A DNA stretch of 48,370 bases, taken from NCBI GenBank assembly GCA_944391115.1, contig CALXSJ010000023.1, forward strand, positions 1 through 48,370. Reading direction: 5' to 3'. The notes beneath the pieces were generated by a model, which had not been told where the DNA came from, made no database searches, and saw nothing but the letters and a program-made list of their open reading frames with translations. The position numbers were made by a program, and so were the translations under genes. Source of the DNA: an uncultured Victivallales bacterium. GTDB taxonomy: Bacteria; Verrucomicrobiota; Lentisphaeria; Victivallales; UBA1829. Below, piece after piece: positions 9,613 through 48,370 of the stretch. Position 1 is the first letter of the stretch. Every line of letters begins with the position of its first letter.

Positions 9613-10821
9613 TCAAAGTCCCCCGGGGCCGTCAAGCAGATGTCCCATTTTATTTTTCTTGGTCTCCAGATAACGCCGGTCGTGTTCCTGCGGCGGAATG
9701 ACAATCGGCACGCGCTCGACAATCTTGAGTCCGTATCCGTCGATGCCGACAATTTTCTGCGGATTGTTGGTCAGGAGACGCACTCCTTTGATCCCGAGGT
9801 CGATCAGAATCTGCGCGCCGATTCCGTATTCGCGCAGGTCGGCGGGAAAACCGAGACGCTCGTTGGCTTCGACGGTGTCGCAGCCCTGCTCCTGGAGCTT
9901 GTAGGCGTGGAGCTTGTTTTCCAGCCCGATGCCGCGCCCTTCCTGCCGCATGTAGACAAGCACGCCGCAGCCTTCCGCGGCAATCATTCTCATTGCGGTA
10001 TGCAGCTGGTCGCCGCAGTCGCAGCGTTCGGAGCCGAACACGTCGCCGGTCAGACACTCGCTGTGGACGCGGACAAGCACGGACTCTTTTTCCCGGACAT
10101 CGCCGCAGACCAGCGCCAGATGCGTCGAGTTGTCGTTTTTCGAACGGTAGAGGTGCATCTGGAAATCGCCGTAGCGGGTCGGCAGCTTCACGGATTCCTC
10201 GCAGACCACCAGATGTTCCGTGCGGCGGCGGTAGGCGATCAGGTCGGCGATGGAAAGGATCTTCAGACCGTGTTTTTCCTTGAATGCCATCAGGTCGGGC
10301 ATCCGTGCCATCTCGCCGTTGTCCTTCGTAATCTCGCAGATGACGCCGGCCGGGGTCAGGCCCGCCATCCGCGCGAGATCGACAGCCGCTTCGGTATGTC
10401 CGGTGCGCTGAAGCACGCCGCCGGGACGCGCCGCAATCGGGAAGATGTGTCCGGGAATGCCGAAATCCGCGCGGGTGCTTTTCGGATCGATCAAGGTCCT
10501 GACCGTGTTTGCGCGGTCGAACGCGCTGATGCCGGTTGTGCCGCTCAGCGCGTCAATGCTCTCCGTGAACGCGGTTTTGAAGTGATCGGTCGAGGGGGGA
10601 CGCAGAATGCCGAGTTCTTTCGCACGCGCCTCGGTGATCGGCGCGCAGACCAGTCCCCGCGCATGGGTGATCATGAAATTGATGACTTCCGGTGTGACAC
10701 GGTCCGCCGCACAGACGAGATCGCCTTCGTTTTCGCGGTTTTCGTCATCCGTCACAATGACGAGTTTTCCGTTCCGGACGTCCCGCAGGACATCCTCGAC
10801 GCTGTCGAATTGAAATTCCAT
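9613..10821 (-). CDS. ribBA: Bifunctional DHBP synthase / GTP cyclohydrolase II
   Basis: This protein carries out both entry reactions of riboflavin synthesis: ribulose 5-phosphate to dihydroxybutanone phosphate, and GTP ring opening. Of its 402 residues, about 1-200 form the RibB domain ([42 protein letters not shown]) and about 205-390 form RibA (zinc site [19 protein letters not shown], then [14 protein letters not shown]). AAGGAGG precedes the start. It is the first gene after the FMN riboswitch, so its expression should fall when flavin is plentiful. A T-rich stretch follows the stop, but only a weak hairpin is visible there. Confidence 0.97.
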
Positions 10822-10914: not shown

Positions 10915-11040
10915 TCGTTTCTTCTCTCATCCAGACTGTACTGTCGGTCATGGAATCGCACCATGTCTGCGGAACCTTCCGGATCCGCTCGCGGACTTTA
11001 CCGCCGGTAAGGAGTTTCACCTTGCCCTGAAGAAAACTTC
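10915..11040 (-). ncRNA. FMN riboswitch (RFN element)
   Basis: Read on the minus strand, the leader shows the RFN consensus in order: AGGGCAAGGTGAAACTCC, then TTACCGGCGGTAAAGTCCGCG, a variable arm, and at the 3' end GGTGCGATTCCATGACCGACAG followed by GTCTGGATGAGAGAAG. This six-arm aptamer binds FMN and represses riboflavin genes. It lies 94 bp before the ribBA ATG and begins just after a -10-like TATATT. No clear U-tract terminator follows, so control may act at translation, though the platform was not resolved. Confidence 0.95.
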
Positions 11041-11153: not shown

Positions 11154-11267
11154 GGGATTTCGCCTCCGGAGACCAGCAGCTTACGCAGCCGGAGGGCGGC
11201 AGGATTCTCTGGAGGGCCAAAGCGGTTTTGGCGATGCAAAGCATCGCATGATTAACCTATTTTTTTA
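11154..11267 (+). repeat. Interspersed hairpin element, short form
   Basis: This copy begins GGGATTTCGCCTCCGG, contains an altered ACCAGCAGCTTACGCAGCC block, and ends in the perfect hairpin GCGATGC-AAA-GCATCGC (11231-11247) followed by TTAACCTATTTTTTT. The same order of parts is seen at 29291-29406 and 39930-40038. It lies between the 3' end of the glycosyltransferase gene and the riboflavin promoter. Confidence 0.8.
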
Positions 11268-24177: not shown

Positions 24178-24978
24178 ATGCGAAAACCGGAAGAAAAAAG
24201 AATCCGCAGTACAAAAAATGACAATGCGCAGCATGCGCACACCTGTAATCTTTTCACCCTGGTGGAGCTCCTCGTAGTGATTGCGATCATCGCAATTCTG
24301 GCCTCAATGCTGCTTCCCGCTCTCGGGCGGGCGCGGGACATGGCGCGCGGAATCTCCTGCATCAACAACCTGAAACAGATCGGAACGGCCTTCTCGTTTT
24401 ATCTTGCCGACAACAAGGAATTCTATCCGAGCGGCGTCTCGGCGCAGAAGAACTATATGGGCTGGTCGTGGTACAAGGTGTTTGTCATGCATGGCAAATA
24501 CATTACATGGAAATCCATGTTCGACTCCGCAATGACCTATGAGGAAGGCAAAGAACCTTATGAACGTCCGAATGATGCGCCATGGGGAGAGAGTTATCTT
24601 CCTTACGGATACAATTACACGGTTTTCGGTTCAAGCAAGGCCAATGGAATCCTCGACGAGGAAGGAAGGAGCGCCAAACTTTCTGAAATTGCATACAGTT
24701 CAAAAGCCTATCTCGTCATGGATACGAAAACATACGACCTGCAGACGGGAAATACCTTTGTGCAGACCCGCGACAACACCACGGCCATTCCCGACGCATT
24801 CCGCCACAAAGGACACGTTTCGATCGTCTACGCCGACGGCTCCGCAGGGAAGAAGAAAGCGGCAAATCCCTATCAGCCTTATGAAGTCAACAGCCTGAAC
24901 TATTTCAATTACGGCAATCCCGGACACCGGGCGGTCTGCTGGGACGGCGGACGTTTCGGCGGAACTCCCGTTTTCTGA
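24178..24978 (+). CDS. Prepilin-type protein with H-X9-DG motif
   Basis: The 266-residue protein starts at 24178, where GGGAG lies eight bases upstream; the upstream open frame is not needed. After a 31-residue charged leader comes the type IV pilin/pseudopilin signal [19 protein letters not shown], so cleavage and N-methylation by a prepilin peptidase are expected at the phenylalanine. The region [22 protein letters not shown] is typical of Lentisphaerota/Planctomycetota pseudopilins. Near the end [12 protein letters not shown] fits the H-X9-DG processing-associated motif. It lies 26 bp before the large secreted protein, suggesting a shared extracytoplasmic job, perhaps substrate capture or export. 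Confidence 0.88.
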
Positions 24979-29084: not shown

Positions 29085-29101
29085 CGCCATGCGCGGTATC
29101 C

Positions 29102-29290
29102 GGGATTTCGCCTCCGGCGGCCGGCTTGCGCAGCCGGAGCGCACCAGGACTCAATGCAGAACACGAATCATAATTTGCAAAGCAAATTATTTTTTTTATT
29201 ACGGAAAAATGCGCAAGCATTTTTCGCGGGGTCAAGGGCCTCTCGGCCCTTGGCATGATCCAGCGGCGAAACGTTGAGCGTGCGAAGCAC
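29102..29290 (+). repeat. Interspersed hairpin element, composite form
   Basis: Successive stems are CCGGCT-TGCGC-AGCCGG, ATAATTTGC-AAA-GCAAATTAT, GAAAAATGC-GCAA-GCATTTTTC, CAAGGGCC-TCTC-GGCCCTTG, CCAGCG-GCGAAA-CGTTGA (imperfect) and CGTGC-GAA-GCACG (29279-29291). The same order, reverse complemented, is found at 48045-48370. It runs straight into a short-form copy. Confidence 0.85.
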
Positions 29291-29406
29291 GAAATCCCCC
29301 GCCTCCGGCGGCCGGCTTGCGCAGCTGGACCGCACCAGGACTCAATGGAGAGCACGAGGCAATTTCTGGCAATGCAGAGCATCGCGATATTAACCTGATT
29401 TTTTTT
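29291..29406 (+). repeat. Interspersed hairpin element, short form
   Basis: It starts with the CCTCCGGCGGCCGGCTTGCG block and ends GGCAATGCAGAGCATCGCG, then TTAACCTGATTTTTTTT, matching the 11154-11267 and 39930-40038 copies. It lies just before the glyS promoter. Confidence 0.85.
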
Positions 29407-29424
29407 GAATAAAGCAAAATGAAA

Positions 29425-39858: not shown

Positions 39859-39929
39859 GCTTCTCCGGAAAGCCTGCGGAAGCGGCAAAAAGGAGATCAA
39901 CTGCCGCAATGCAGGCATACGCGCCATCA

Positions 39930-40038
39930 GGGATTCCGCCTCCGGCAGCCTGCTTGCGCAGCTGGACCGCACCCGGACTGCAAATCCCGCATGAAGCTGT
40001 TCCGGCGATGCAAAGCGTCACGGTATGAACCTGATTTC
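39930..40038 (+). repeat. Interspersed hairpin element, short degenerate form
   Basis: GGGATTCCGCCTCCGG, a CTTGCGCAGCTGGACCGC block, and GGCGATGCAAAGCGTCACGG followed by GAACCTGATTT match the 11154 and 29291 copies part by part. The terminal stem is damaged and the T-run shortened, so this may be an old copy. Confidence 0.75.
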
Positions 40039-40097
40039 AATCATCCTCTTTTTCAGGAGGAAAAATCCGTCCGTTCGGCGCAATGCATCCCTTTTTT

Positions 40098-42291: not shown

Positions 42292-42969
42292 ATGAAAAAG
42301 AAATGCGGGGCTGTGACAGGTTTTACCTTGATCGAGCTTCTGGTCGTAATCTCCATTATTGCAATTCTCGCTTCGATGCTGCTTCCCGCGCTGAACATGG
42401 CGAGAGCCAAGGCAAAATCCATTTCATGTGTCTCCAATCTCCGCAGCTGCGGAATCGCCCTGCAGCAGTATACGATTGATTATCAGGACTGCATCCCGTA
42501 TTATGCCGGAAGTCCGGGATACTCGTCGGGATTCCGTTCCGGGGAAACATGGGAATGTCAGCTGGGCAGATATCTGGGCTGGACTCCGACCAAAGGAGAC
42601 GCCGTCTTCCACTGTCCCGCACGAAAGATCGGCGTCCATCCCAGCTATCCGAAACAACATCCCCGGAATTCCTGCGGATACGCCATCTACATTTCCATGT
42701 ATTTTACCAATGAACCGGGATGGATTTCAAAAATCACCCGCATCAAAAAGCCGACCAAGAGTCTTTATCTTGCGGAACGCGACAACGGTTCCACCCAGGC
42801 TGAGGTTCCGATCCCCTTCATGAACGAGTGGAATGTAAATTATGTCGGAATCAGCAACCCCGTGGCGGCGGTGCATCCGGGGCTCCGGACCGCGGTCCTG
42901 TGCGTCGGAGGGAACGCCTTCCTCTTCCGCTATCCCGGTCAGAAACTGGTTGCCGGAACCTTCTACTGA
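42292..42969 (+). CDS. Prepilin-type protein, H-X9-VG variant
   Basis: Start at 42292 follows AAGGAG by eight bases. The short basic leader [10 protein letters not shown] leads to [19 protein letters not shown], the type IV prepilin signal. The mature part has [21 protein letters not shown], as in the 24178 gene. The tail [13 protein letters not shown] keeps the spacing of the H-X9-DG motif, but the aspartate is a valine. Of 225 residues, most of the rest is a small extracytoplasmic domain with several cysteines. It precedes the carbohydrate-binding and GH42-like genes, repeating the pilin-then-secreted-enzyme order seen at 24178-29021. Confidence 0.87.
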
Positions 42970-47968: not shown

Positions 47969-48036
47969 ATGCCGTTTTGGATTCTGCATCCCGTTACCGG
48001 CCCTGTTGGGACCGTGGGGTCCGAAACGGCATTTTT
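47969..48036 (+). terminator. Terminator after the GH42-like gene
   Basis: ATGCCGTTTTGGA (47969-47981) pairs with TCCGAAACGGCAT (48020-48032) over 13 bp with one G-U pair, and five T follow. The loop is long (38 nt) and partly self-complementary. Confidence 0.65.
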
Positions 48037-48044
48037 CATAAAAA

Positions 48045-48370
48045 AAATAATTTGCCATGCAAATTATAATTCGTGCAGGACTTTCAGTCCTGCCGCGCTC
48101 CACCTGCGCAAGCCGGACGCCGAAGGCGGAAGTTTTCGCGCTTCGCGCGACCAGCGTTTCGCCGCTGGAGCACGCCAAGGGCCAAAAGGCCCTTGACCCC
48201 GCGAAAAATGCTCGCGCATTTTTCCGTAATGAAAAAAAGTGAAGCCTCCCTGCCGCGCTCCACCTGCGCAAGCCGGACACCGGAGGCAGAAGCTTTCGCG
48301 CTTCGCGCGACCAGCGTTTCGCCGCTGGAGCACGCCAAGGGCCAAAAGGCCCTTGACCCCGCGAAAAATG
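48045..48370 (-). repeat. Composite hairpin element with 160-bp tandem repeat
   Basis: In reverse orientation to the 29.1-kb copy this region has ATAATTTGC-CAT-GCAAATTAT, GCAGGACT-TTC-AGTCCTGC (48075-48093), CGCGC-TTC-GCGCG (48137-48149), CCAGCG-TTTCGC-CGCTGG (48151-48168), CAAGGGCC-AAAA-GGCCCTTG and GAAAAATGC-TCGC-GCATTTTTC. The block from CCTGCCGCGC at 48089 is repeated from 48249 (period 160) and is cut by the window end. Confidence 0.85.

Follow-up and report, generated by a model that had tools for sequence, protein, structure and literature searches.

Intergenic hairpin repeats of a Victivallales genome as transposase-free derivatives of IS200/IS605 insertion sequences

Repeat loci in the window and their genomic setting

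The window, a 48,370-nucleotide contig of an uncultured Victivallales bacterium, carries hairpin repeats at five intergenic loci, and the parts ascribed to them in a preliminary description, arranged in a short and a composite form, were found at all five when the sequence was read directly. The composite copy at 29086-29407 (minus strand) aligns over its full length with C12:79885-80290, with a copy on C9 and with a 5'-truncated one on C30, the left end being present in all. In transposon orientation its left end (LE; 29369-29407, minus strand) comprises the LE hairpin GCAATGC-AGA-GCATCGC (29369-29385, minus strand), which matches the LE consensus, and the guide base X (29391), an A on the minus strand that is complementary to the T of the TTTATT target site in the host flank (29408-29413, minus strand; AATAAA on the plus strand). 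At the other extremity lies a truncated right end (RE), a remnant of the RE hairpin (29086-29108, minus strand) aligned with the complete RE at C12:80211, which in the C12 composite reads AATCAATTACCGCGATGCAAGCATGCGC. Two copies of the core hairpins (29109-29166 and 29300-29357, 93% identical, the latter assigned to repeat family D1) enclose inserted B-type modules (29167-29299), which are found again at some 50 genomic positions. These modules are an AATTTGC-AAA-GCAAATT hairpin with a T-run, ACGGAAAAATGC..GCATTTTTC, GGTCAAGGGCC..GGCCCTTGG and CCAGCGGCGAAACG..., and the stretch ends with GAAATCCCCC.

A degraded short form, recognized by its sequence and its LE match, occupies 39895-40039 (minus strand) and consists of an RE (39895-39931), a core (39937-39994) and an LE hairpin (approximately 40004-40020); its right-end hairpin falls outside the interval 39930-40038 originally assigned to this copy. 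An old short form with no recognizable RE hairpin lies at 11154-11267 (minus strand). The remaining two loci, 1-706 and 48029-48370, are B/C-type composite arrays, each cut by a contig end; core hairpins are present in the former, which lacks IS200-type LE and RE. Among the other features of the window, an FMN riboswitch (10915-11038, minus strand; 118 bits with Rfam) is flanked by the gene at 9613-10821 and by the 11154 copy of the short form, and the genes at 24252-24344 and 42321-42413 share a common type of start, as in prepilin-like proteins.

The family is real and spread over the whole assembly (95% complete). Genome-wide searches yielded at least 63 matches to 29102-29406, at least 55 matches to the short form and, at three or fewer mismatches, at least 82 copies of the core, against none for the reversed control pattern. 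The core alone is also present in another genus and another family. The short form was confirmed as first described. The composite form exists as well, yet under that name two different things had been lumped together, namely 29102-29406, which has short-form ends, and the arrays at 1-706 and 48029-48370, which share only the core with the short form. That account missed the AATNAA motif of the flanks, the actual ends of the element and its connection with a transposase. Our literature search brought up no publication on such repeats in Lentisphaerota.

The stated location past gene 3' ends proved broadly true: the 60 repeat islands with two called neighbours lie between 37 tandem, 19 convergent and 4 divergent gene pairs, compared with 41, 9 and 17, respectively, for background spacers. 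The claim that no gene is interrupted holds inside the window. Across the genome, overlaps with a called gene exceed 15 nt for 14 of 79 islands and 60 nt for 12 of these, the gene calls being custom and simple. The overlapping islands that were inspected lie at gene edges, or the start of the called gene appears to have been extended wrongly.

Ends and mobility of the short form

The short form is 150-154 nt long and, fully read, contains no transposase gene. Nine copies at unrelated sites are 100% identical over 154 nt and have sharp common ends, and nearly nine further copies show 98-99% identity. All of them start with AATAAATTACC and finish with TTTTTTTGA, followed by the AATNAA of the host flank. 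In transposon orientation (slashes marking the element boundaries), the arrangement is TTNATT / (T)CAAAAAAATTTAGGTTRATACC, the hairpin GCGATGC-TCT-GCATCGC, the core, and then CAATACCGCG..CGCGGTAATTTATT /. The flanks to the left of TTNATT and to the right of the element end are unrelated between copies.

The joined flanks of eight copies were searched against the sister species G001 and G003. Exact empty sites were found in G001 for the copies at C34:18518, C10:44041, C9:106860 and C5:158765, that for C1:270756 being less well aligned; the first three were likewise exactly empty in G003, with the C5 site partly aligned. The empty sites read ..GAATTC/GAATGAAG.. and the like, with neither duplication nor loss. 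The site corresponding to C29:23868 is occupied in G001 by two tandem copies. The C5 site of G001 reads CGATGAAC rather than AATGAAC, so the target base may have changed since. Mobility, the ends, the target and the lack of duplication are thus directly apparent from these comparisons, and the short form is a mobile, transposase-free derivative, about 150 nt in length, of an IS200/IS605 (Y1/HUH) insertion sequence.

The earlier suggestion of a REP/MITE-like family was apt in that the short form is mobile and has no transposase of its own; this form is, however, neither a REP nor a classical MITE. A classical MITE, mobilized by a DDE transposase that duplicates its target, would likewise be short, non-coding and bounded by inverted terminal sequence, but the empty sites carry no duplication, and the AATAAA at the RE belongs to the element while the other flank varies as AATNAA. 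We give this reading almost no credence. The other early proposal was that the repeats are structured RNA 3' ends or terminators, kept for their function rather than for mobility. Their enrichment past gene 3' ends, their stable hairpins and the T-runs that follow the B-type end hairpins would all suit such a role. Against it stand the exact presence or absence between species, the intact empty sites, the 100% identical copies and the target rule described below. Moreover, the T-run of the LE is not beside the stem but about 13 nt from the short-form hairpin, a terminator scan of this form was negative, and Rfam, at both gathering and relaxed thresholds, gave no relevant family for the repeats. 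Conservation as RNA ends is consequently very unlikely for the short form. The elements may nevertheless have a secondary terminator role, and the B-type end hairpins may act as terminators.

Association with an IS200/IS605 transposase

The preliminary description knew of no named element with this make-up. This is correct at the level of the element, but the parts are matched by the termini of an IS200/IS605 subgroup that is widespread. The RE hairpin is found 20-60 nt 3' of an IS200-type tnpA in seven genomes of distant relatives (G058, G024, G020, G057, G063, G069 and G028), and several of these genes also have a matching LE hairpin 5' of tnpA, which in G020 reads GGGTTTAATACCCCGACCCTCTGGGTCGG. 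Intact tnpA genes with the RE directly 3' occur in other Lentisphaeria, Bacteroidota and Erysipelotrichaceae, and minimal LE-RE elements in G036 (Lentisphaerae bacterium WC36) and G053. In a scan of 84,980 species genomes, the same RE was detected behind intact tnpA in Allomuricauda, Leeuwenhoekiella and one Erysipelotrichaceae genome, and in minimal elements of Tenacibaculum, Aquimarina and Subsaximicrobium; the motif was found in no viral contig. The RE stems covary, ACC[G/C/T]CG with CG[C/G/A]GGT, such that stem position 4 is G-C, C-G or T-A. The ends are linked to an IS200-type tnpA. Elements that carry tnpA contain nothing equivalent to the core hairpins.

The linked enzyme scores 131 bits with the IS200/IS605 model NF033573 of NCBIfam (cut-off 55); among PDB entries, its nearest sequence matches are the ISDra2 and ISHp608 transposases. 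These values bear on the idea that the repeats are REP/REPIN elements moved by a RAYT (TnpA-REP) transposase, for which a linked RAYT-like gene had been proposed as a check. Numerous palindromic copies in intergenic positions close to the 3' ends of genes, their occurrence in arrays and the inverted ACCGCGATGC at both ends are what such elements would show. The enzyme, however, reaches only 30.6 bits with the REP-associated model NF047646 (cut-off 80), and the repeats are precise mobile units in which LE and RE are distinct and the target is TTNATT; a RAYT-driven origin is thus highly improbable. No intact transposase of the right subgroup was found in the genome itself, in G001 or in G003, and G002 contains a broken relative. 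A REP/RAYT system within the genome itself was also considered and set aside: the Pfam Y1_Tnp search recovered a sole Y1 trace there, broken and of another subgroup (L063, G000:C35:25416-25862).

Guide base and target site

DNA-guided target choice in the IS200/IS605 family is established from IS608 and from engineered changes of the guide. In these systems, each hairpin has on its 5' side a guide that base-pairs either with the flanking target or with the right-end cleavage site (PMC6006769, PMC5934647), and in IS608 the target positions -3 and -4 are paired by the first two guide bases (PMC5934647). The guide and target register of the present elements agrees with that of IS608. Both LE and RE carry T-X-A-T or XAT, rather than a GTAG-type tetranucleotide, 5' of the hairpin, and the variable LE guide base X (A, G or C) lies eight nt 5' of the LE hairpin core.

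Among 61 non-tandem copies, guide A occurs with target T in 30 of 32 cases, guide G with C in 11 of 18 (and with T in 6), and guide C with G in 8 of 11. In a 64-copy set, to which further sister-species copies were added and from which look-alike flanks were removed, X and the N of TTNATT form a Watson-Crick pair in 53 copies, or in 58 when G.T is counted; pairing is broken in the other 6 even with G.T allowed. The pairing value was not reached in any of 100,000 permutations, and mutual information with the target peaks at the guide base X. By genome, 28 of 37 copies pair in the genome itself and 25 of 27 in sister genomes. In the window, the degraded short form at 39895-40039 obeys the rule, with guide C and target ATGATT (AATCAT on the plus strand, 40040-40045); the copy at 11154-11267, with guide A beside CTGATA, does not. 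A similar relation exists between the RE guide and the RE end (A-T, G-C or G.T, with few exceptions). The putative pairing of the LE guide with the target, like that of the RE guide, is documented here as covariation.

Shared ancestry of flank and subfamily, in place of targeting, could also generate such a correlation, since the copies of one subfamily have the same guide and some G001 copies are orthologous to those of the genome under study. The left flanks past TTNATT are, however, unrelated, the signal persists (53/64) once look-alike flanks have been removed, and the empty sites carry the target prior to insertion; common descent as the source of the correlation is scarcely credible. Tandem junctions were rejected as proof of guide use, as complementarity was seen in 6 of 13 only; this fits insertion in either order.

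Three natural specificities are evident, TTTATT, TTCATT and TTGATT. The third subfamily, whose guide base is C and whose insertion site, TTGATT, does not correspond to a stop codon in context, is represented by G003 copies (L218-L223, L225 of G002).

Insertions at stop codons

TTTATT and TTCATT are the reverse complements of AATAAA and AATGAA, that is, of stop codons in context. In the genome under study, the right end could be resolved for 29 single copies; of these, 15 lie exactly on the in-frame stop of a long ORF (criterion, approximately 140 codons), compared with 4 copies in the other two frames together. As a null, the non-repeat AATNAA sites of the same stretches comprise 12 located at stops, 180 between genes and 227 within coding sequence. 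At the replaced stop position the right end of the element supplies a TAA. With a 100-codon ORF criterion, the sister species show a weak bias (5 of 33 stop-exact, versus 4 and 1 in the other frames), and in other phyla the bias is absent (1 of 27). A general rule of stop-codon targeting was hence rejected, and the stop bias is a feature of this genome, where it reflects chance, selection or both. That the family evolved through single guide-base changes into a stop-codon seeker, A or G in the guide giving TAA or TGA in AATRAA and the right end restoring TAA, is a tentative proposal that we consider rather unlikely. If it were true, insertion would have no consequence for the host protein, and the DNA guide would encode a safe-harbour strategy.

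Composite form and a second repeat layer

The composite at 29086-29407 is a short form in which additional modules separate two core copies. Because it carries the ends of the short form, it could move by them. The arrays at 1-706 and 48029-48370 are built of B/C modules (CCCGGAGCGGTTCAAACCGCTCAGTGACGAGAACTTTTC... and others) and represent a second, older repeat layer, which breaks the assembly at both contig ends. B/C arrays are mostly also present in the sister species, at the same loci and in other lengths; one 421-bp presence/absence difference was seen, against a paralogous site. Neither IS200-type LE/RE nor a mobilizer was found for this layer. A small palindrome, GCGCGCGAAGCTGCGCAA, recurs upstream of B-type ends, beside the hairpins (e.g., L097, L091 and L074).

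Proposed mechanism and relation to known systems

The short form and the composite at 29086-29407 are, very probably, non-autonomous IS200/IS605 elements moved in the following manner, with a target read by the guide. A Y1/HUH transposase acting in trans would recognize the single-stranded end hairpins, as inferred from the IS200/IS605 family, and would excise the element via a single-stranded intermediate. Insertion would take place 3' of TTNATT, without target duplication, as the occupied and empty sites indicate. The site would be read through base pairing of the target with the LE guide T-X-A, and the TTYATT of the right end would be specified likewise by the guide of the RE itself, both steps being suggested by covariation. 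Changes of X from A to G to C would have retargeted the subfamilies to TTTATT, TTCATT and TTGATT, respectively. As the strand opposite TTTATT and TTCATT reads AATAAA and AATGAA, respectively, many insertions would fall exactly on TAA or TGA; the terminal TTTATT of the element would recreate TAA where the stop stood, and the protein would thus remain unchanged. Head-to-tail arrays would arise because the target is kept at the left and each RE offers a new TTYATT. The composite would presumably move as a unit.

The closest named class is that of the PATEs, the palindrome-associated transposable elements of Haloquadratum walsbyi, which are active although the IS200-type genes are broken (PMC3119063). 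Like PATEs, the present elements are transposase-free, with near-terminal palindromes related to IS605-type ends and a short flanking targeting sequence without target duplication (PMC3119063). They contain no transposase, their ends are homologous to those of tnpA-bearing IS200/IS605 elements, the target in the LE flank is fixed and not duplicated, and the guide pairs with it; since every testable PATE feature was found, we place them with the PATEs among non-autonomous elements of the IS200/IS605 kind. Unlike PATEs, they are bacterial, their core hairpins are not derived from tnpA, three guide-target specificities are readable from the copies, and insertions at stop codons occur. With IS608 and ISDra2 they share LE and RE hairpins with a guide on the 5' side, pairing at the cleavage site, a Y1 HUH enzyme and a short, fixed target 3' of which insertion occurs (PMC5934647), but they lack an internal tnpA, their target is TTNATT, and one guide base naturally switches specificity. 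The resemblance to REP/REPIN-RAYT systems lies in scattered intergenic palindromes tied to a Y1-type enzyme class, whereas the transposase group is another, the unit has a true LE and RE, and no RAYT was found linked to the ends.

Here, the guide rule can be read from the copies of a single natural family: where the guide switches among A, G and C, the landing sites switch too, so that natural retargeting becomes testable from the genome sequence alone. The puzzling intergenic hairpins of Lentisphaerota are thereby explained, and the family illustrates how such an element can sit on stop codons harmlessly. As these ends are distributed over several phyla, comparable repeats that still lack an explanation may be open to the same annotation. 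L260 of Allomuricauda and L290 of Leeuwenhoekiella agree fully in the tnpA end, the RE and the 12 bases of flank that follow, which suggests a recent transfer or a common mobile context across the two genera.
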